Shown here piece by piece: positions 5,435 to 43,496 of a DNA stretch of 43,496 bases. Origin of the DNA: Candidatus Calditenuaceae archaeon (GTDB lineage Archaea > Thermoproteota > Nitrososphaeria_A > Caldarchaeales > Calditenuaceae); the NCBI GenBank assembly GCA_025058225.1, contig JANXEE010000007.1:1-43496 (forward strand). The letters run 5' to 3'. Within the stretch, counting starts at the first letter, position 1, and the number at the start of each line of letters is the position of its first letter. A program made the position numbers and the translations under genes. The notes under the pieces were generated by a model that saw only the letters and a program-made list of their open reading frames with translations, ran no database searches and had not been told where the DNA came from.

Positions 5435-5990
5435 GCCTGCACTCCTCACAGAGGAAGTGGTCGTCGATGCGGCGCAGCATGTCGCTCCACTCACCGCAAG
5501 AATCGCAGTATCCCTCGAAGTATGGTTCAGGTCTCCTCACTATCCCCCTTATCTTCAGCTGCTCCCTGACGATCTCTATGATGTCAGGCGTGAACTTCAG
5601 GATGTCCTTCATGCTGATGATCCCGGCGATCCTGCCCCTGTGGGCTACGACGAGCCTGCTCACGTTTAGTTTGTTCATCGTCCTCAACGCCTCCTCGATG
5701 GTCTCCTCCGGTCTCACGGTTATGATCGGACTGGACATGATCTCCCTCAGCTTCACCTCGCTCGGCTTGAGGTCCTTCGCAACCACCTTCTCAACCAGGT
5801 CACGCTTTGTGACTATCCCGACCGGTGAGCTGTCCCTCATCACAAGGACGCTGCTTATCTTGTACTTTGCCATCTGCTGCGCCGCGTCTGCGGCGGTGTC
5901 CTCCACGCTCAACTCAATGATCGGGCTGGTCATCACGTCACGGACCAGTATTTCGCTTGTCAGCGGAGTCTCTTTCAATCCACCATTCAA
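5406..5990 (-). CDS. CBS-domain pair protein with C-terminal zinc ribbon
   Basis: Two consecutive CBS domains fill residues about 15-135. Their repeated hallmarks are VRDVMTSPIIELSVEDT and IMSSPIITVRPEETIEEAL, with strands such as GIVTKRDL and GIISMKDIL. A zinc ribbon follows (CDSC, then CEEC). CBS pairs bind adenosyl ligands such as AMP, ATP or SAM and act as energy or metabolite sensors. The zinc ribbon suggests a nucleic-acid or protein contact. The TTG at 5990 is the first usable start, with a TTTATT box about 20 bases upstream. It lies upstream of, and overlaps, the Mut7-C RNase gene, so the two may act together. Confidence 0.85.
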   Translation of the reverse strand: MNGGLKETPLTSEILVRDVMTSPIIELSVEDTAADAAQQMAKYKISSVLVMRDSSPVGIVTKRDLVEKVVAKDLKPSEVKLREIMSSPIITVRPEETIEEALRTMNKLNVSRLVVAHRGRIAGIISMKDILKFTPDIIEIVREQLKIRGIVRRPEPYFEGYCDSCGEWSDMLRRIDDHFLCEECRLETGRETVE

Positions 5991-6043
5991 CGTGGATCGG
6001 TGTCAATAAACTTTGACCTCCACCAGTCCGGAGCTCTGACCAC

Positions 6044-7303
6044 TCACTCGAACTCCTTCTGAGGGTTGATCTTGCTGAAGACAGCCCTCATCCTCCTCAG
6101 ATCGACGTTCCTCCTTAACAGCTCAGCCTCGATCTCGTCCACGAACTCGGTACCCACCCTTCTCGGGAGGGAGACGAGGTCGTCCACGACGTCGAGCGCC
6201 AACGGTAGGCCGGTTGCTGGGTTGTGGGACTCCAATACGTAGGTGATCGCGATGTCCTTCAGGTCGCTTCCCGCACCCCTCGGCAACTCCAAGCATACCG
6301 GGGGCTGGGCCTCGACCGTCCTCACGAAGACCCTCTCCGTGGAGCTGATCAGTCTGATGAGCTCGTCGCTGCGTTTGTCGTCCCTGTGCCTTCCGAGGTC
6401 TGACACGACCTGCAGCCTGAACCTCCTCTCGGCCCCCTTAAGGGCCCTCTCCACGTCCACCGACCTGCCCTTCCGGACGTACTCCTCCATCTGGCTGCAG
6501 AAGAGCGAAAAGACGTCGTGGTAGTACCCCTCTGGGAAGATCTCGGAGTACGCGATGACATCGCCCGGGCTCGTCGTCAGCAAGAGTATCGACCTGTCGG
6601 AGAGGCCTAGCATCCTCCCGGGGCCGTAGGTGTATCCGATGAGACCGTCCAGAGCCGACGTGGGGACCCTCTTGACGATGCCAAAGGCCCTCCCCGAGTC
6701 GAGGAGCTTCTCAGTCGACCTCAGCAGCTCTTCGATCAGGCCGTAAACCGATTTGAACTCACGACGGCTCACCGGGTCGACCCAATTCAAACTCTTAGTC
6801 TTCACCCTACTGCATCCCGCCCTGAAGCCGAAGAAGCTGCCGTCTATGACGACGTAATCAGCCTCCTCCAACGCCCTGAGGGCGAGGGCCCTCTCCAAGT
6901 ACGTCGTCACCAAGTCCAGCTTCTTCAGGAACTCTTCCTTGCTGTCGTTGACAGACCCCTTCAACATGTCCCCAACGTAGAGCTCACCGTCCTCCAACGG
7001 CTCGAGGCCCCTGAACGCCTTAACGCCAGCTGTTGAGAGGCCGTACTTCACCCCGATCCTCTCGTCGATCGCCGGCGTGTCGGAGCCGTCCACAACAGCG
7101 AAGGTCCTCTCCTTCCACTCGACCCTGTTCAGACCGCGCCTGGCCCTCTTCACCAGGTCCTCGAAGGGTTTGAGGAACTCCACGTCGACCTTCGTCAGGT
7201 AGTTGAGGATCGACTCGACCTCCCTCCTCGCTAAGTCGTAATACCTCTCTTGGAGCGGTTTGGGGATCTTCTGAAGGTCCGGAAGGTCTTCCTCAGCGCC
7301 CAC
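6044..7303 (-). CDS. nurA: NurA nuclease
   Basis: The 419-residue product has the NurA domain. AVVDGSD (residues 69-75) is the first catalytic motif with its essential Asp, and VVIDGSFFG contains a second conserved acidic site further on. NurA is a 5'-3' nuclease that works with the HerA translocase in resecting DNA ends for homologous recombination. The GTG start at 7303 lies inside the last codons of herA (11-base overlap), so the two proteins are made together. It is somewhat longer than many NurA proteins. No mre11 or rad50 gene is present in this window. Confidence 0.85.
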   Translation of the reverse strand: MGAEEDLPDLQKIPKPLQERYYDLARREVESILNYLTKVDVEFLKPFEDLVKRARRGLNRVEWKERTFAVVDGSDTPAIDERIGVKYGLSTAGVKAFRGLEPLEDGELYVGDMLKGSVNDSKEEFLKKLDLVTTYLERALALRALEEADYVVIDGSFFGFRAGCSRVKTKSLNWVDPVSRREFKSVYGLIEELLRSTEKLLDSGRAFGIVKRVPTSALDGLIGYTYGPGRMLGLSDRSILLLTTSPGDVIAYSEIFPEGYYHDVFSLFCSQMEEYVRKGRSVDVERALKGAERRFRLQVVSDLGRHRDDKRSDELIRLISSTERVFVRTVEAQPPVCLELPRGAGSDLKDIAITYVLESHNPATGLPLALDVVDDLVSLPRRVGTEFVDEIEAELLRRNVDLRRMRAVFSKINPQKEFE

Positions 7304-8883: not shown

Positions 8884-9927
8884 TTGAGGGTAGAGGAGGT
8901 CTTAATAGAACTGTTGAGGGTCTACTCTCCAAGCGGCCAAGAGAAGGCCCTCGAACCCGTCATGAGGAGGTTCCAGAGGGAGCTGGGATACAACGATCTC
9001 GTGATCGACTCTGCGGGCAACTACCTCTTCGTCAGGGGGAGCGGAGACCGTAGGGTGCTGCTGGCGGGGCACGTCGACACCGTCCCGGGTCAGATCGAGG
9101 TCTCCAGAAGGGGCGACAGGATAAGGGGCAGGGGTGCGGTCGATGCGAAGGGACCGTTCGCGGCGATGCTCTTCGCCGGATCGAAGTGCGAAGTCCGGTC
9201 CGGTTACAGTGTCGTTGTCGGAGGACTAGTGGATGAGGAGGGCGAGGGCTCCGGTGCTAAGGAGCTACTCAACTCGGCGTTCAAGGCCGACCACATCGTT
9301 ATCGGCGAGCCGACAGGCACTACCGGGGTCGCGATCAGCTACAGGGGCAGTGTAACGCTGGCGCTCACCAGTAAGGGAAGGGGCGGTCACAGCTCAGCGC
9401 CCTACATGGGTGACTCGGCCCTCGACAGGTTGCTGGATGCGATCGAGACCATAAGGTCAGTCTTCAACGGAAGGAGTTACGACGAACCAACTTCAGCGGT
9501 GACCGTGATTAAGGCGGGAGACTGGCCGACCAGGCTGCCTGAGCAGGCTGAAGCGATCGTCAACGTGAGGTTCCCTCCTTCGATGGAGACCAGATCGATA
9601 CTGGAGAGGGTGGAGGCGATCTGCTCGCTCTACGGCTGTTCGTTCGTGGTGAGGGACGTCACCGAGCCGTTCCAGACTAGTGTCTCGCAACCCGTGCCGA
9701 GGGCCCTCATCAGGTCGATGCTGAAGTTGGGCGTCAGGCCAAGAGTGGTCAAGAAGACAGGCAGCAGCGACATGAACGTCCTCTGGAAGCTGACGATGAG
9801 CATCTCGGCCTGCGGCCCCGGGAACTCTCTATTGGCTCACACCTCAGAGGAGGAGGTGAGCGTCGGAGACCTGGAGCTCGCTTCCAAGATCTATGCGGGC
9901 GCCATCAGTGAGCTTCAGTCCAGGTGA
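8884..9927 (+). CDS. lysK: LysK-type hydrolase: [LysW]-lysine/ornithine carrier release
   Basis: This is a 347-residue M20-family metallohydrolase. The metal sites are in GHVDTVPG, GRGAVDAKGP, DEEGEGSG and IGEPTG, and the RGSVTLALTSKGRGGHSSAP stretch marks the dimerisation domain. The short form with RGAVDAKGP is typical of LysK, which frees lysine (and in some archaea ornithine) from the LysW carrier protein in the AAA-type lysine/arginine pathway. The TTG at 8884 is required because the nearby ATG at 8873 opens a frame that stops at once. The rest of the lys cluster is not here. The gene converges on argH, a neighbour that fits an arginine role. Confidence 0.85.
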   Translation: MRVEEVLIELLRVYSPSGQEKALEPVMRRFQRELGYNDLVIDSAGNYLFVRGSGDRRVLLAGHVDTVPGQIEVSRRGDRIRGRGAVDAKGPFAAMLFAGSKCEVRSGYSVVVGGLVDEEGEGSGAKELLNSAFKADHIVIGEPTGTTGVAISYRGSVTLALTSKGRGGHSSAPYMGDSALDRLLDAIETIRSVFNGRSYDEPTSAVTVIKAGDWPTRLPEQAEAIVNVRFPPSMETRSILERVEAICSLYGCSFVVRDVTEPFQTSVSQPVPRALIRSMLKLGVRPRVVKKTGSSDMNVLWKLTMSISACGPGNSLLAHTSEEEVSVGDLELASKIYAGAISELQSR

Positions 9928-11360
9928 GTTCGTTCTTTGGCTTTGCCCAACAACTTCATCCTGACCTGCTCCCTGGCCTCCAGTTCGGCCTCGGCCCACT
10001 TCCTCAGCGACTCGACTTCGAGCACCAAGAGGTCGCAAGCCCTCCGGACCTCGTCGGGGTGGGAGGAACCCAGTACCCTGTAGCTCCGAACTACCTTCTC
10101 TGGCTTGAGGAAATCGCTGAGCGCAGAGAGCGACTCGTCGTCCAGTCCGAGCGCCCTACCCTCCGCTATCACCTCAGAGATCCCCGACCCTGAAGCAAAG
10201 AGCCTCGAAAGCCTCGCGGCGATGCCATGAGCCCTCCTGAAGGTCATCTTGCGGTTGAGAGCCAAGTGCGCGGCGAACTCCGTGATCCCCGCTATCGGAT
10301 GAACCGCGCGCACAGCTTCCTCCGTAACCCTCATACCCGCTATCAAGCCCTTCATCACCCTCATCGAGTCAAGTGCTGCGGCAGATGGAGGCCAGATGTG
10401 CCTTGTTGACTCCTGAAGGTCGAGAACGTAGCCCCCGAACCTGCGGGCTAGGGTCGCCGTGAGACTCGTCAGACCGCCGAGGGCCTTCGCTGCGATCGTC
10501 CTCGCAACTTCTGCCACCACCGGGTTACGTTTGTGGGGCATGATGCTGCTCGTGGAGCAATACTCGTCACCTATCTCGATAAGCTGCATGCTGACGTACC
10601 TCACGATCTCCTCTGCCAGATCAGTCAGTGCGACCGATAATCTACACAGCGCCCCAAGATATGTTATTATGAAATCTCTAGAAGAGCTCGCCTCGAGTGC
10701 GTTCAGGAGAGGTCCTTTGAACCCGAGCAGCTCCGAGAGGGCCGAACGGTCGTGGGGTACGGAAGTGCCTCCAACGGGGCCCGCTCCCAGCGGCGACTCG
10801 GCGACGTCGTCGTAGAGGCTTTTGAGAGCCCTCAAGGATTTCAGGATCCTAGATGCGTGGTAGGTGAGGACGAACCCGAACGTTCCAGGGGCAGCGACCT
10901 GCTCGTGTGTGAACAAGGGAAAAACGGTCTCGGCGTGATCCCGAGCCTTAGAGATCAGCGCCTCCGCCAGACTTGATCCCTCGCTGACCAACTCCGCGAT
11001 GTACTTCATCAACCTCAGCCGAATCGCTGCGGCGACCGCATCGTTCCTGCTCTTTCCAAGGGCCAAGTTCTCACCGGCCTCTGGAACGGCCGACTTCAGG
11101 TACTCCTCGATGACCATGTGGACGTCCTCAAGCTTGTAATCCGTCATGGGGAGCGTTGACGGATGCGCGCTCCTCAGGGCCTTGATAGCCCTATCCAGTG
11201 TCTCGCTGTCTATCAGACCCATCCTCTCGAGTGAGGTCAGATGGGCCGCGTTCACAAGGACTACCTCATCGAAGATCTGGAGGTCTACGTCGAGCGATGA
11301 GATGAACTTCGCCACGTCCTCAGGCATCTCCCTCTCTAAACGCCCGGACCTGAACGACAC
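9915..11360 (-). CDS. argH: argininosuccinate lyase
   Basis: The product of 481 residues belongs to the fumarase/aspartase superfamily. Visible signatures are LEDVHMVIEEYL, LALGKSRNDAVA, SPLGAGPVGGTSVPHDR and the catalytic loop SSIMPHKRNPV. The combination with PLGAG and TSVPHDR fits ArgH better than adenylosuccinate lyase. It splits argininosuccinate into arginine and fumarate. The start is set at the GTG at 11360, just after a GGGGGAAC ribosome binding site; the upstream open frame runs antisense through the LSm gene and is not coding. Its 3' end overlaps lysK by 13 bases. Confidence 0.85.
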   Translation of the reverse strand: MSFRSGRLEREMPEDVAKFISSLDVDLQIFDEVVLVNAAHLTSLERMGLIDSETLDRAIKALRSAHPSTLPMTDYKLEDVHMVIEEYLKSAVPEAGENLALGKSRNDAVAAAIRLRLMKYIAELVSEGSSLAEALISKARDHAETVFPLFTHEQVAAPGTFGFVLTYHASRILKSLRALKSLYDDVAESPLGAGPVGGTSVPHDRSALSELLGFKGPLLNALEASSSRDFIITYLGALCRLSVALTDLAEEIVRYVSMQLIEIGDEYCSTSSIMPHKRNPVVAEVARTIAAKALGGLTSLTATLARRFGGYVLDLQESTRHIWPPSAAALDSMRVMKGLIAGMRVTEEAVRAVHPIAGITEFAAHLALNRKMTFRRAHGIAARLSRLFASGSGISEVIAEGRALGLDDESLSALSDFLKPEKVVRSYRVLGSSHPDEVRRACDLLVLEVESLRKWAEAELEAREQVRMKLLGKAKERTHLD

Positions 11361-36961: not shown

Positions 36962-39184
36962 CTATTGTATCACTCGCGGCTTGGAACTGCTCTTTATGAC
37001 CCGCGTGAAGACAACTGCGCCGATCGCCGCCGCGAAACCGACGACCGTGAGCAGCATGAAGGTGCTGGCCTCAGCACGTGCAGCAGAGAGCGCGTTCCGT
37101 GACGCTTCAAGCTCACTTCTGGTCCTTTGGAGTTCACCCCGCGTCGCCTCGAGCTCCTGTTGGGCCCTGAGCTTCTCCTGGGTCTCCGAATTCAGAGACC
37201 TCTGCAACTGATCTATGCGCGCGTTTGCGGTGTTCAGCTGTCCTCGCAGCCCTTCAAGCGCTGACCTCAATGACCCGATCTCGTTCTCGAGCTGAGCGAT
37301 CCGCGGCCTAACAGACTCTATCGCGAGCCTTGCACCCTCAACCTTGTCGTAGAGTTCGATGATATCGCTAAAGGCCTTCCACGCGAAGTCAAAGGCCGTC
37401 TCCAGCTGCGCGCCGAGTCCCGCAAAGCCGAGCCTGTCGAAGTAATAGTGTTCCCTGAACCTCGCGACCGCCATGACAGCCGCCTCATCAGCCTCCCTCA
37501 GGAGTTGTTCCGCCTCAGGTATCTCCTCCAGTTTCAGGTCGGACTCCTTGAGCTTGGTGATGATCTCCTCCCTATACTGCAGATAATAACTCAGCAGTAA
37601 CGTCACAACGGCCCTGTCTATCGCGTCCAGATCAAAGGCGCTGAAGTAGGACCTCAGGGGATAAACTCCCTGGTAGAGCATCCGTTGGTTGATGACCTGA
37701 GGTGCGTCGGCGTAGGCCATAGCGGTCTCGATCCAGCTGTAAACCCACCTGTTGGTTATCTTGGGCTTGAACTTGCCTGGGCCCAGTATCTCCTGGTCAG
37801 TCTCATCCATGTCGTTATGTGGGTGAGCTAACCCCAGGGTGTGAGCGGCTTCGTGTATTGTGACCAACGTCAGCCCCTCCCGTTCTACGAATCTGTAGGA
37901 GAGCCCAACCACAACACCCCTCGGGTATCTCGGATCCCTCGAGTCAGGCCACGCGATACCTAGGGTGCCTGGTGAGTCGGGATAGATGTCACCGTCCGCG
38001 AGGAAGATCAGCATCGGGATCCTGATTACGCCTTCAGGTGAAGGCGGTATCAGCCCCGTTCTCTCAGCCAATGTGAATGCCCTCTCCACGTCTATTATCT
38101 GATAACCTCTATAGGTGAGCACGGCCTGTCTCATCACAGCGGCCTCCGCGATCGTCTTGTAGTGGAACCTAGTCGTGTAAACGTTGTACGGCATCAACCA
38201 CCTCATTGACGCCTCGAATATCTCAGGAATGAAGTTGTTCGCTATGAACGACAGTCCACCTCCTGTGGTAGTAAAGTCTATTACTACTATATCGAAGAGA
38301 AGAGTTATCTGATATCTGGGCACGTAGAGGAGGCTCTTCACGAAAAGGTTGTCAATTATCTCGTCGATGTACATAGCAATCGCGTTTATCTGATCGCGTG
38401 GGTTAGTATAGAACGCCGGAGGTATGTACTTCACCACATCATCCTCCGTCTTGGGTGCAAAGTTCCCCGCTGGATTAGGTATTGCGCATATGTCAAGAAC
38501 CACGTACCTGAAGGTCCCTATCCCGCCGTAAAGGTTCATTCCCACCATGCCTATGTTGTTTCCGCGCTCGACCGTCGTGCCCGCACTGAAGTAAACCGGT
38601 ATTTTGTTACCGGTGAACGGTAGACCGCAGACTAGGTAGATGTTATAACCATCAGCAATCCGCGGGAGGGAAGCATAGGTTAGCCTGATAAGGTTCATCG
38701 TGAGCTTTGATATGTCTGTGAGTTTGTCGCTCATTCTGATGACCGTCGAGGTGCCGTAAGCGTTCCTGATGAAAGAGAGGTACTGATTGTAACCGTTCCT
38801 GACGTCTACCGGTAACTGAGCCGGGTCGTAGGTCACCTGTTGGTAAAGTGAACGTATCTCAGCGTTCAGCCGGGCATCAGCCTCTATTACGGAGAGGGTC
38901 ACGTCGAAGGTCGCAACCAAGTAGGGTTCGTCCATGAAGAACCCGGCGTAGGCTGTCGCCTCTCTCCTCACGAGCTCCGACAGCAACCTCTGGAACTGTG
39001 CGGTGGTGAGGCCGAAATCCCTACTTGAGAAACCGGCGATTATCACGTTGACCTCTAACGGTGCATTGATAGGGAGCTCGATGGGTGGTTCACCCTCCTC
39101 CGCTCTCGATGGAGCACTGGAAAGCGTGATGATCGCGATTAGCATCTGTGTCAACAGAATCGCCGAGAGAGAACGTTTCACCAT
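36962..39184 (-). CDS. membrane-anchored metzincin-like metalloprotease on a coiled-coil stalk
   Basis: The 740-residue protein has a signal peptide (SLSAILLTQMLIAIITLS) and a large ectodomain. The zinc motif HEAAHTLGLAH is at residues 444-454, with a likely Met-turn MAYAD near residue 489. A long coiled coil at about 609-707 (IAQLENEIGSLRSALEGLRG is part of it) leads to a C-terminal transmembrane helix at about 708-728 and a short basic tail. The catalytic head would thus stand off the membrane on a rod. I chose the ATG at 39184 because an AT-rich box at 39206-39217 lies about 27 bases upstream; a TTG at 39193 is the alternative. No named family is recognised beyond the zinc motif. Confidence 0.8.
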   Translation of the reverse strand: MVKRSLSAILLTQMLIAIITLSSAPSRAEEGEPPIELPINAPLEVNVIIAGFSSRDFGLTTAQFQRLLSELVRREATAYAGFFMDEPYLVATFDVTLSVIEADARLNAEIRSLYQQVTYDPAQLPVDVRNGYNQYLSFIRNAYGTSTVIRMSDKLTDISKLTMNLIRLTYASLPRIADGYNIYLVCGLPFTGNKIPVYFSAGTTVERGNNIGMVGMNLYGGIGTFRYVVLDICAIPNPAGNFAPKTEDDVVKYIPPAFYTNPRDQINAIAMYIDEIIDNLFVKSLLYVPRYQITLLFDIVVIDFTTTGGGLSFIANNFIPEIFEASMRWLMPYNVYTTRFHYKTIAEAAVMRQAVLTYRGYQIIDVERAFTLAERTGLIPPSPEGVIRIPMLIFLADGDIYPDSPGTLGIAWPDSRDPRYPRGVVVGLSYRFVEREGLTLVTIHEAAHTLGLAHPHNDMDETDQEILGPGKFKPKITNRWVYSWIETAMAYADAPQVINQRMLYQGVYPLRSYFSAFDLDAIDRAVVTLLLSYYLQYREEIITKLKESDLKLEEIPEAEQLLREADEAAVMAVARFREHYYFDRLGFAGLGAQLETAFDFAWKAFSDIIELYDKVEGARLAIESVRPRIAQLENEIGSLRSALEGLRGQLNTANARIDQLQRSLNSETQEKLRAQQELEATRGELQRTRSELEASRNALSAARAEASTFMLLTVVGFAAAIGAVVFTRVIKSSSKPRVIQ

Positions 39185-39187
39185 CGC

Positions 39188-39203
39188 ACTCAATATATTG
39201 AGT
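39188..39203. promoter_or_regulatory. 16-base perfect palindrome at the metalloprotease start
   Basis: ACTCAATATATTGAGT equals its own reverse complement. It lies between the putative TATA-like box (39206-39217) and the ATG at 39184, so it covers the transcription start. Its position is that of a repressor site that would block transcription initiation, although it could also be a second AT-rich promoter element. Confidence 0.45.
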
Positions 39204-40142: not shown

Positions 40143-41645
40143 TTACTTCAGATTCTGTCTCCAAGTGGAGCGCGCCTCTAAGGCCAGAAGGACTGCCATC
40201 AAAACCGCAGCGGCCGTCACCGTAAAAAGCAAGAGGCCCCCGTCGATCTCAATGAGCTCCGTGTTGAGGTCATCTGTTCGGGAGGGCGTCTCCTCCAAGG
40301 TAGTCCCCGAGCGGGTCGCAGGGTTGCTCGATTGGGTCCGTATTTTGCTGCCTGTGAGTCCGACCTTCGAGAGCGTCTCGATGGCCTCCTCATTCAGGTA
40401 CTTGGAAAGGTGCGCTATGACCTGTTCACTGGAGGACAGTCCCCCTTCAAGGCTCTTCAGGTCGCTGATCGCCTTCAACATGCCTGGTCTGTCGAGCTTG
40501 AACAGCTCATCGATCACTGTGTACGCCGCTGCGTACCATGCCCTGTCCCTCATCTCTCCAGACCTCCACTCTCTTAAATCGATTTGATCCGAGTGGGTCG
40601 CTGTCCTGCGCAACTCCTCCTCGAGGACCTCTGCAGCCCTCAGACCCAAGCGCTTTCCCAACTCCACCGATAGGTAAACCGCAAGTCCCTCGTGGAACCA
40701 CGTAGCACCCGCTCCCACCCCGACCGCGAAAAGGTAGTGATGCACCAGCTCGTGAAGCGCAGTTACCTCCAGCGATCCTTGAATCCTCCTGAGGAGTATG
40801 AGGTTAAGCTTTATCGAACCGACCTCGCCGACCGGTACGGGCGCGTATCCCTCTGGACCTGACCTGTGGTCGCGGGGCAAGAAGAAATCCACGACCAAGG
40901 CGGAGACTTCCACACCGAACAGCTCCTTGAGAGTTCCGGTGACGTTCGTGAAGGTATCGATGATCGTTCTGGCGTCATTGCTGTACCGTTGCTGAGCCCT
41001 CACCGTAAACCCTTTCGAGGTAAAGAGCTCGATCGGCTCTTCGATCGCCCGGAAGTTCACCACGACCCTGTTGATGAACGATGGCAGCTCGTGCCGGAAC
41101 TCGAACGACTCGTTTGAGGCTCTTAGTCGGGTAGCGGGTGGGTCAACCGAGATAACCCTCAGCGCTACGTCGGTCAGAGAGATCTCCAGCTTACCCCTCA
41201 CGGGAGGGCCGTAGACGATTAACGGGGTTATGAGAAGCCCCCGATCCCCCATCAAGAGACAAGCGTGCTTGAAACTGTAGGACACTTTCAGTTCGCCCTT
41301 TAACGGCCTGAGATCGAAGGTGACGTTGCTGTAGACCAATCTCCCCTCAAAGTCCTCCGGGAGGTCAGACGTCCTCGTGACCGCGTCAGGCACCACAGAC
41401 CACTTCACCGGTTCCTTCGGAAGCAAAAGCCAGAACTCGTTGATGCTCAAGTCCTTGAGCGCTTCGACGTTGACTGTGAACCTAACATCACCCACGCAGG
41501 ATCGATCGACCTCGATGAGCGCGGTTACGTAGACAGGGTCATCGACCGCGGAGACGGGACTGACAGCATAACACGTCACAAACAGAGCAAGTGATCCGAG
41601 TAGAACCGCTGACAACAGCTGATACATTCTCCTCAGCGGAAGCAC
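40143..41645 (-). CDS. membrane-anchored gluzincin-type metallopeptidase
   Basis: The 500-residue protein has an N-terminal signal peptide (LLSAVLLGSLALFVTCYAVS) and a beta-rich ectodomain. The zinc motif HELVH is at residues 298-302, with the third ligand Glu in FHEGLAVYLS near residue 319, the spacing of M1/M61-type gluzincins. A C-terminal transmembrane helix lies at about 468-490. It should act outside the cell while tethered to the membrane. The GTG at 41645 overlaps the stop of the pilin-like gene by 13 bases; the ATG at 41627 is an alternative start. It is the last gene of the leftward pilin operon. Confidence 0.8.
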   Translation of the reverse strand: MLPLRRMYQLLSAVLLGSLALFVTCYAVSPVSAVDDPVYVTALIEVDRSCVGDVRFTVNVEALKDLSINEFWLLLPKEPVKWSVVPDAVTRTSDLPEDFEGRLVYSNVTFDLRPLKGELKVSYSFKHACLLMGDRGLLITPLIVYGPPVRGKLEISLTDVALRVISVDPPATRLRASNESFEFRHELPSFINRVVVNFRAIEEPIELFTSKGFTVRAQQRYSNDARTIIDTFTNVTGTLKELFGVEVSALVVDFFLPRDHRSGPEGYAPVPVGEVGSIKLNLILLRRIQGSLEVTALHELVHHYLFAVGVGAGATWFHEGLAVYLSVELGKRLGLRAAEVLEEELRRTATHSDQIDLREWRSGEMRDRAWYAAAYTVIDELFKLDRPGMLKAISDLKSLEGGLSSSEQVIAHLSKYLNEEAIETLSKVGLTGSKIRTQSSNPATRSGTTLEETPSRTDDLNTELIEIDGGLLLFTVTAAAVLMAVLLALEARSTWRQNLK

Positions 41646-42106
41646 GAGCTCGGGCTTTCTGTGATGATGGCTCCTTCCCTCGTGATCGTTACAAGCTTAA
41701 CGGTCACCCTCCCTCCGGAGAACTCTGCCATTACGGTGACGGAATCACCCCCGGAGCCTGACTGGAAGTACTCGACGTTCGAGACCCTCGGGAGAGGCCG
41801 TTCATAGGTCAGGCCCATGGCCGCGACGCAAAGGGCCATGTCTCCGGTCCTAGGACTGATGCCTATCTCAGCCCTAAGGGGGAAACCTACCGATACCGAC
41901 TTCAGCTCCCTTCCGGACTCGGTGAGCTTGGCCTCTTCAACGGCACTCCATATGCCTGAGAGGACGTGTGAGGACGCGACTGAGAGGGCCGACCTCTTAG
42001 CGATGTAGTCGGTCGTGTTCAACTGCTGAAAGAATAGAACTGAAGTGGAGAAGGCCACCAACATTATGACGCCGATCGTGATTATGTAGGTGTAGGAGAC
42101 GGTCAT
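41633..42106 (-). CDS. pilin-like or archaellum-accessory-like single-pass protein
   Basis: The 157-residue protein has one N-terminal hydrophobic helix (YIITIGVIMLVAFSTSVLFF) followed by a beta-rich domain of about 120 residues. No classical class III signal site (K/R-G before the hydrophobic stretch) is seen. It looks like the accessory stators or minor subunits of archaeal type IV pili or archaella. One Cys near position 88 and one near the C-terminus could pair. The stop overlaps the gluzincin gene start, and the start lies 6 bases after the next pilin-like gene. Confidence 0.6.
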   Translation of the reverse strand: MTVSYTYIITIGVIMLVAFSTSVLFFQQLNTTDYIAKRSALSVASSHVLSGIWSAVEEAKLTESGRELKSVSVGFPLRAEIGISPRTGDMALCVAAMGLTYERPLPRVSNVEYFQSGSGGDSVTVMAEFSGGRVTVKLVTITREGAIITESPSSCFR

Positions 42107-42111
42107 TCAGC

Positions 42112-42915
42112 TCACCTCGCCCAGACAGTCACGGTAACGTAATCGACGAAAACTCTGAGGACTACCTTCTCATTGGTCGAGAAGGTAATTCGGGGAACCG
42201 GCTGGCCGTCAACTAAGACCCTGAGCGATCCGCCGTCGATCGACTCGGGGAGCTGGTAGAAGGTCCTCCGGGTCGAGTTTAGCCTGAAGGTCAGCATGTC
42301 GCCCGGTGGGACGACGTACCCGGTCTGAATCACTTGCCTCAACGCCTCAGCGTCAGATGCGTACGGTGAGACGAAGACTGTCCTAACTGTCACGGTCACG
42401 ACGACGTCGTTGTAGATTCTGTCCACGGAATACGAGACGTACGGCAGCGCCTTTGTGATCACCCTGACTTCCCTGTCGGTGTAGATCGCGTAGGTCACCA
42501 CGTCTACACCCTCGGTGGTGTAGTTCAGCTTGTTGTTCGCGATGTAATTGCCCAGAACATCGACCTCCCCGCGATCCAAGTAATAGATCCCCGGAATCCT
42601 CTGCTTCGGACCGGCATACTCGATGGTGCTGACTACAGCCGGGACGATGATGCTCCTCCCATTCCACTCGATCGCTACTGCGTGCACCTCCGCGAATGGT
42701 CTGATGATAACGGGATGGGCGAGGTTGGTCGCTCCCTCTCTCCTGAGGAGGAGGTCGTGAACCTGCTGTATGCCCGTACCCATTGCCGCCAACTGAGCCT
42801 GGCCGGAGGCCTCCCAAGGCCTCCAAAGCGCTACGACGGTGACAGCGAGGGCCGCGGTTATCGCGATGAGGGTTGCCGTTTGAACCGCGGTGCTGAGCCC
42901 TGCCATGGACCTCAA
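42112..42915 (-). CDS. pilin-like surface protein with class III-type N-terminus
   Basis: The 267-residue product begins MRSMAGLSTAVQTATLIAIT. A glycine before a long hydrophobic helix is the pattern processed by archaeal prepilin peptidase. A large beta-rich head (about 220 residues) with several Tyr- and Val-rich strands follows. It is probably assembled in, or anchored to, a pilus-like structure. The TTG at 42915 lies just after GGGGGTGAG; the ATG at 42906 is an alternative that shortens the leader. It is in one operon with the repeat protein upstream and the small pilin-like and peptidase genes downstream. Confidence 0.65.
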   Translation of the reverse strand: MRSMAGLSTAVQTATLIAITAALAVTVVALWRPWEASGQAQLAAMGTGIQQVHDLLLRREGATNLAHPVIIRPFAEVHAVAIEWNGRSIIVPAVVSTIEYAGPKQRIPGIYYLDRGEVDVLGNYIANNKLNYTTEGVDVVTYAIYTDREVRVITKALPYVSYSVDRIYNDVVVTVTVRTVFVSPYASDAEALRQVIQTGYVVPPGDMLTFRLNSTRRTFYQLPESIDGGSLRVLVDGQPVPRITFSTNEKVVLRVFVDYVTVTVWAR

Positions 42916-42919
42916 GTCC

Positions 42920-43496
42920 TCACCCCCTGGCGGTCTGCTCGATCGGTAACGGGGAGAACGGTGATATCAAGACCGGTCCGGTCATGGTGTCGGCGGGCAC
43001 GAGGATCCTCGGGACGGCCCTAGCAGATGGGTCGTTATAGGGCGTCTCAAGGACTCCGACCGAGTACTCGATCGGGAACGGGGAGAACGGCGAGAGCAAC
43101 GGGCCGCCCTCGATCGGGCAGGGGGAGAAGGGGGCGATCAGCGTCTCCCGCTCTATCGGGCACGGCGAGAAGGGCGCGATCACCGGGCCCTGTTCTATCG
43201 GGAACGGGCAGAACGGTGCCAGAAGCGGGTTGTTCTCGATCGGGAGTGGACAGAATGGTGCGATGAGAGTCCCGGTGAGGTCGCCGAGTCCCTTCACCTC
43301 AACGGTGCCGTCGGACTTCACGACGAAGAGCCTCGCGGTGGCCGATGCTCCAGGAACCACCGGCCTCTTCGGGTCGCCCAATATCACGACGTCAACGCTC
43401 CAACCCCTCAGCGCCGGGCCGATCTCATTGACCTTAACCGGGACGACGCTCGGCGGAGGAGCATCGAAGAGCTCCCTGATCTCCTCCAGAGGTCCA
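42920..43496 (-). CDS. 3' part of a protein with six PF-P-PIE repeats; 5' end outside window
   Basis: The frame is open to the right edge, so only the last 191 residues are visible; the GTG at 43387 is internal. Six copies of an 11-residue motif, hydrophobic pair-A/S-P-F-C/S-P-x-P-I-E, are present. Five are spaced exactly 14 residues apart (43067-43267) and one lies near the C-terminus (42938-42970). Four copies contain one Cys, at two alternative positions. A small segment with SATARLFVVKSDGTVEVKGL precedes them. No transmembrane anchor is visible at the end. No family is recognised. It lies 4 bases from the pilin-like gene and heads that operon as far as seen. Confidence 0.75.
   Translation of the reverse strand, partial: GPLEEIRELFDAPPPSVVPVKVNEIGPALRGWSVDVVILGDPKRPVVPGASATARLFVVKSDGTVEVKGLGDLTGTLIAPFCPLPIENNPLLAPFCPFPIEQGPVIAPFSPCPIERETLIAPFSPCPIEGGPLLSPFSPFPIEYSVGVLETPYNDPSARAVPRILVPADTMTGPVLISPFSPLPIEQTARG
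43067..43267 (-). repeat. coding tandem repeat, five units of 42 bases
   Basis: Each unit encodes 14 residues with the core A/S-P-F-C/S-P-x-P-I-E. The copies vary at the third codon position and at a few residues, so the repeat is kept by protein selection and is not a recent DNA duplication. Confidence 0.85.

Follow-up and report, generated by a model that had tools for sequence, protein, structure and literature searches.

The window, the whole stretch of 43,496 nucleotides analyzed here, is an entire contig of a Calditenuis genome (G000, contig C9; 33 contigs, 73% complete) and ends within an open reading frame on the reverse strand (42920-43495, stop codon 42920-42922). This frame is truncated N-terminally by the contig edge, so that only the last 191 codons of a gene for a large surface protein remain; its full-length homologue, in Candidatus Calditenuis fumarioli, has 1482 residues. 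The fragment opens with a domain (43268..43495, reverse strand; DAPPPSV..VKVNEIGP.LRG.S.D..I.GDP.RP) that is conserved in the C. fumarioli alignment and is possibly a beta-sandwich, with strands in low-confidence models; AlphaFold2, given three sequences per run, reached pLDDT values of 32 for the window fragment and 34 for the C-terminus of C. fumarioli. The domain is followed by six copies of the unit (hydrophobic)2-[AS]-P-F-x-P-x-P-I-E-x3, all on the reverse strand: copy 1, LIAPFCPLPIENNP (43226..43267); copy 2, LLAPFCPFPIEQGP (43184..43225); copy 3, VIAPFSPCPIERET (43142..43183); copy 4, LIAPFSPCPIEGGP (43100..43141); copy 5, LLSPFSPFPIEYSV (43058..43099); and, beyond a strongly conserved 29-residue spacer, GVLETPYNDPSARAVPRILVPADTMTGPV (42971..43057), which matches C. 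fumarioli at 21 of the 31 positions compared, the solitary copy 6, LISPFSPLPIEQTA (42929..42970), near the C-terminus, a position that is kept in C. fumarioli.

The units start at fragment residues 77, 91, 105, 119, 133 and 176, with spacings of 14, 14, 14, 14 and 43, and the 42-bp array was detected by Tandem Repeats Finder. Self-matches at period 14 numbered 45, compared with at most 31 at any period from 5 to 39 in 5000 residue shuffles, and the motif [AS]PFxPxPIE occurred six times in the fragment but never in 20,000 shuffles. The repeat described in an earlier note made from the DNA letters, namely, five units at an exact 14-residue period and a sixth after a gap, is thus real, and so is the single cysteine that moves between two positions (PFC in copies 1 and 2; PC, as PxC, in copies 3 and 4), these four residues being the only cysteines in the fragment. 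The two or three prolines per unit given in that note should, by contrast, read three or four.

A search of relatives recovered the complete homologue, of 1482 residues, in the same-genus genome Candidatus Calditenuis fumarioli 146_bin.25 (G001; species description, PMC10547907). The order of its parts is a signal peptide, an N-terminal domain, a threonine-rich linker, a membrane hairpin, a helical rod of ~500 residues and a C-terminal domain with the array. In the hydropathy profile, the signal peptide spans residues 3-21, and two strong transmembrane segments (375-393 and 406-424) lie past the threonine-rich linker, whereas N-glycosylation sequons are confined to the N-terminal part (59-306). 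Given the signal peptide, the positions of the transmembrane segments and the restriction of sequons to the N-terminal 306 residues, the protein fits a topology with the N-terminal domain outside, a membrane hairpin and the C-terminal part outside as well. Weaker hydrophobic stretches (about 503-521, 599-625 and 1055-1080) would also permit other topologies of this protein, the topology being read from the hydropathy of one full-length sequence. The earlier assignment to the cell surface is supported: the signal peptide and hydropathy indicate a protein that is probably extracellular and probably membrane-anchored, encoded in a type IV-filament locus. At its C-terminus, the pre-array domain is kept and is followed by the unit LLSPYLPFPPEITP, three times in tandem, the spacer PYQDPSARGVPQVLVPADTATGTV and one further copy near the end. 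The C. fumarioli unit is 36% proline, from which we infer an extended conformation of the array; its location outside the cell is likewise deduced from the signal peptide and hydropathy.

Residues about 739-1234 of the C. fumarioli protein form a long amphipathic helix that matches tail tape-measure profiles (PHROG 58 and others; E values down to 3.5e-17). The likeness lies in helical, amphipathic composition, and the match probably reflects that composition in a long helical rod. Membership in the phage tail tape-measure proteins was rejected: the 1482-residue protein differs from them in its signal peptide, transmembrane hairpin and pilus-gene neighbors, has no tail genes beside it and is matched by no phage records. 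A 329-residue protein resembling a fragment of a phage tape-measure protein is encoded some kilobases downstream of the pilus locus in C. fumarioli (L017:6608-7597) and is possibly a provirus remnant.

Upstream of the 1482-residue protein gene in C. fumarioli lie adjacent genes for a T2SSE ATPase (PF00437, E 2e-23) and a T2SSF membrane protein (PF00482, E 8e-11), as well as genes for two further proteins of 518 and 193 residues; downstream, among others, are two genes for proteins whose N-termini resemble those of pilins and one for an M61-like peptidase. The downstream gene order is the same in the window, where, all on the reverse strand, the repeat frame is followed after 4 bp by a gene for a genus-restricted, 267-residue protein with a pilin-like N-terminal hydrophobic helix (42112..42915), a gene for a 157-residue protein with a similar pilin-like helix (41633..42106) and a gene for a 500-residue membrane protein with an HELVHHYLF motif and a C-terminal transmembrane segment (40143..41645), an M61-like/gluzincin peptidase with a sub-threshold match to Peptidase_M61. 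The hydrophobic helices of the two small proteins are evident, but a Pfam search gave no pilin match for either. The earlier designation of the locus as a pilin operon is supported by synteny, with TadA/TadC-like genes upstream in relatives, and not by family matches to pilins. Farther along in the window (36962-39193, reverse strand), a 743-residue secreted protein carries the metzincin motif HExxHxxGxxH and a C-terminal coiled coil with a transmembrane segment; it is conserved beside the locus in C. fumarioli and in the Calditenuis genome SKYB91 (G003), too.

The adjacency of the T2SSE ATPase and T2SSF protein genes, followed by genes for small proteins with N-terminal hydrophobic helices, is shared with archaeal Tad-like type IV filament loci, and the T2SSE-T2SSF pair that marks such a locus is also present in the other three Calditenuis genomes (G000 contig C28, G002 contig C59 and G003 contig C29). 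A TadC paralogue found across the order is only about 25-28% identical to the TadC-like protein of the repeat-protein locus, and its own locus in C. fumarioli is without the 1482-residue protein; near this paralogue, C. fumarioli encodes a 193-residue, very threonine-rich secreted protein (L064:1982-2563, reverse strand). The repeat-protein gene sits in a second Tad-like pilus locus, found only in Calditenuis, which differs from the widespread one in being genus-specific, in holding the 1482-residue protein and in having ubiquitin-like system genes nearby. These genes, which flank the pilus genes, encode a ubiquitin-like domain fused to an E2 (Pfam UQ_con and Rad60-SLD/ubiquitin) and a JAB/MPN protease, joined in C. 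fumarioli by a ThiF-type E1 (L016:5232-6047 and 5986-6528, and L017:428-1276); in the window genome, the fusion and JAB genes are on contig C28 (L053:10237-11058 and 9741-10232, reverse strand). The ubiquitin-like domain ends in ..RPVGG, immediately before the E2 begins, an arrangement as if JAB could release it. All four Calditenuis genomes carry the fusion, whereas in three relatives of another family both parts are matched with stops between or inside them; a second E2-like match occurs elsewhere in G000, G001 and G003.

The family was unrecognised in the earlier note, and the searches agree: the repeat fragment matched no Pfam family at E<=1, no NCBIfam family and no PHROG; its best PDB hit by phmmer (E 0.66) was spurious, and a profile of two-unit blocks found nothing in the PDB at E<=10. 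Neither a relative of the repeat protein nor the array was found in viral collections, and a narrow full-text literature search returned no description of such a repeat. The 14-residue repeat and the genus-restricted 1482-residue surface protein are undescribed, although proline-rich repeat tails as such are already a known kind of thing.

Among 101 relatives, the repeat protein was found in three, all Calditenuis, and was absent from the other 98; the adjacent pilin-like protein likewise occurred in three of the 101, again all Calditenuis. A scan of 398 genomes from the phylum that allowed at most two mismatches found the tandem pattern, at the DNA level, in 3 and not in the other 395. The array is present in SKYB91 at the edge of its own contig, so that both relatives with sequence across this point, C. 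fumarioli and SKYB91, keep the repeat together with the operon, the check that the earlier note had proposed. The remaining Calditenuis genome, G002 (57% complete), is without the repeat protein, but its contig stops upstream of the array point; indeed, all three fragmentary Calditenuis genomes break between TadC and the array, and the missing N-terminal part of the protein was not among the assembled contigs of the window genome. Several candidate matches were rejected: weak fragment matches in G008, G045, G069 and G077 were to unrelated proteins or out-of-frame low-complexity regions, single-motif matches in G002 were unrepeated and at chance level, and a lone unit-like peptide in G022, from the two-unit profile, lies in a 72-residue frame that other frames overlap and, at E 3e-4 per genome in a search of 398 genomes, is attributed to chance.

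At the DNA level, copies 2-5 of SKYB91 hardly differ from those in the window (dS of 0.02 across 70 codons; Fisher p 2e-9 compared with the next 34 codons). Positions 1-140 of the SKYB91 contig C37 equal window positions 43095-43234 exactly, the contig name marks a k=141 assembly, and the end of contig C28 of G000 likewise has exactly 141 bp in common with G002 (C59:108121-108261). These exactly shared 140- and 141-bp contig ends look like common nodes of a k=141 assembly graph, and because the match in C37 suggests such a node, SKYB91 copies 2-4 were not counted toward conservation. Since the similarity between the two genomes runs past 140 bp to 212 nt, with two mismatches, it suggests real exchange or recombination between the two related Calditenuis species in this gene. 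There are two independent versions of the array, those of the window genome and C. fumarioli.

Within each genome, the copies are uniform as protein yet old as DNA: residues are shared, whereas the synonymous codons are near independent draws. The C. fumarioli copies share 87% of residues, and where a residue is shared the codon differs in 59% of cases, compared with 60% expected from independent draws under window codon usage; in the window genome, 61% of residues are shared and 44% of their codons differ, with 55% expected. The earlier observation of drifting synonymous codons under constant amino acids is thereby confirmed. The unit core, P4, P7, P9 and E11, is invariant across both species, and four columns are fixed differently between the window species and C. 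fumarioli in all copies (F/Y, [SC]/L, I/P and variable/I). The solitary last copy, the orthology of which is set by the conserved spacer, is closer to its own array (8-9 of 14 positions in one species, 12-13 of 14 in the other) than to its orthologue (7 of 14). Over the spacer and last copy (overlap codons 71-104), the window and SKYB91 are separated by 17 changes, all of them synonymous (dS 1.26), a count from a single genome pair and 34 codons, whereas four neighboring genes show dN of 0.11-0.33 and dS of 1.0-1.5; the contrast is significant compared with the adjacent gene (Fisher p=0.002) and with all four genes (3e-5). The spacer and last copy are under purifying selection. The agreement of copies within a genome, the different residues fixed between species, the near-saturation of synonymous codons and the 17-to-0 count together support selection acting on the unit itself.

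Such a pattern bears on what the array does. Co-evolution with a partner would give joint change of all copies, which a plain spacer would not need. Our preferred reading, held tentatively and at close to even chances, is that the array is a C-terminal multivalent docking tail of a genus-specific surface protein in a Tad-like filament locus, with a putative partner. The transmembrane hairpin would hold the protein in the membrane, the long helical rod would carry the C-terminal domain outward, and the array, of five plus one or three plus one copies, would display a short, extended, proline-rich motif many times. Each copy would then offer the same docking site to one surface partner, itself repeated or multimeric, candidates being the filament subunits, a co-encoded secreted protein or the coat of a neighboring cell, and the role might be adhesion or filament capture.

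The proline richness, the exact 14-residue period and a copy number that varies by species would also suit a structural spacer or rod, a polyproline or turn spiral in which length matters and nothing specific is bound. A pure spacer, however, should tolerate residue changes, whereas the solitary last copy and the core columns have barely changed and, within a genome, no copy departs from side chains such as F/Y and E. We regard this explanation as unlikely, albeit the most serious competitor. The units might instead be processing, glycosylation or sorting sites, recognized by the pair of metallopeptidase-like proteins encoded alongside or by an export factor; several copies would then mean several processing events. 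The M61-like gluzincin and metzincin-motif genes are close by and conserved in C. fumarioli, and a near-C-terminal copy is kept in both array versions; yet the C. fumarioli units contain no sequon, and we are aware of no cleavage or sorting signal that looks like this, which counts against such sites and makes them improbable.

That the uniformity of the copies merely reflects recent duplication or gene conversion without function could draw on the near-identical 212-nt tract, which suggests that exchange occurs here. Within one genome, however, DNA identity between copies is only 60-79% and synonymous sites have reached saturation or come close to it, so the copies have not been recently homogenized; together with the constraint evident from the absence of nonsynonymous changes, this renders the explanation very unlikely. 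Old gene conversion followed by synonymous drift would yield species-specific copies, too, and is a weaker alternative, near-saturated synonymous sites excluding only recent conversion. Finally, a disulfide cross-linked rod, as the earlier note proposed from the one cysteine, at unit position 6 or 8, in four of the six copies, is highly improbable, since all four C. fumarioli copies are without cysteine and the cysteine codons are one base from serine or phenylalanine codons at the same positions in sister copies, although a local addition in one species is conceivable.

Under the docking-tail reading, the closest parallel in working is found in eukaryotes, where multivalent arrays of proline-rich linear motifs exist, such as PxxP- or EVH1-type ligands, likewise built of a short proline-rich unit with an aromatic residue in exactly spaced tandem copies. 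The likeness is in working only: the Calditenuis array is archaeal and predicted to be extracellular, and no SH3, EVH1 or WW partner is known for it. The Calditenuis lineage is known for filamentous hot-spring streamers. A bolder proposal, which we consider rather unlikely, is that a filament-locus stalk protein with a 14-residue proline-rich multivalent ligand tail represents a new class of archaeal surface recognition, in which the tail consensus shifts jointly in every copy from species to species and co-evolves with a species-specific receptor, for example, in the recognition of like cells within streamer filaments. Joint residue change across every copy, against freely drifting codons, is a testable signature of co-evolution between the array and a partner; that partner, if found, would yield a peptide-receptor pair of natural, high-temperature origin and assign a function to a second pilus-like locus in archaea.
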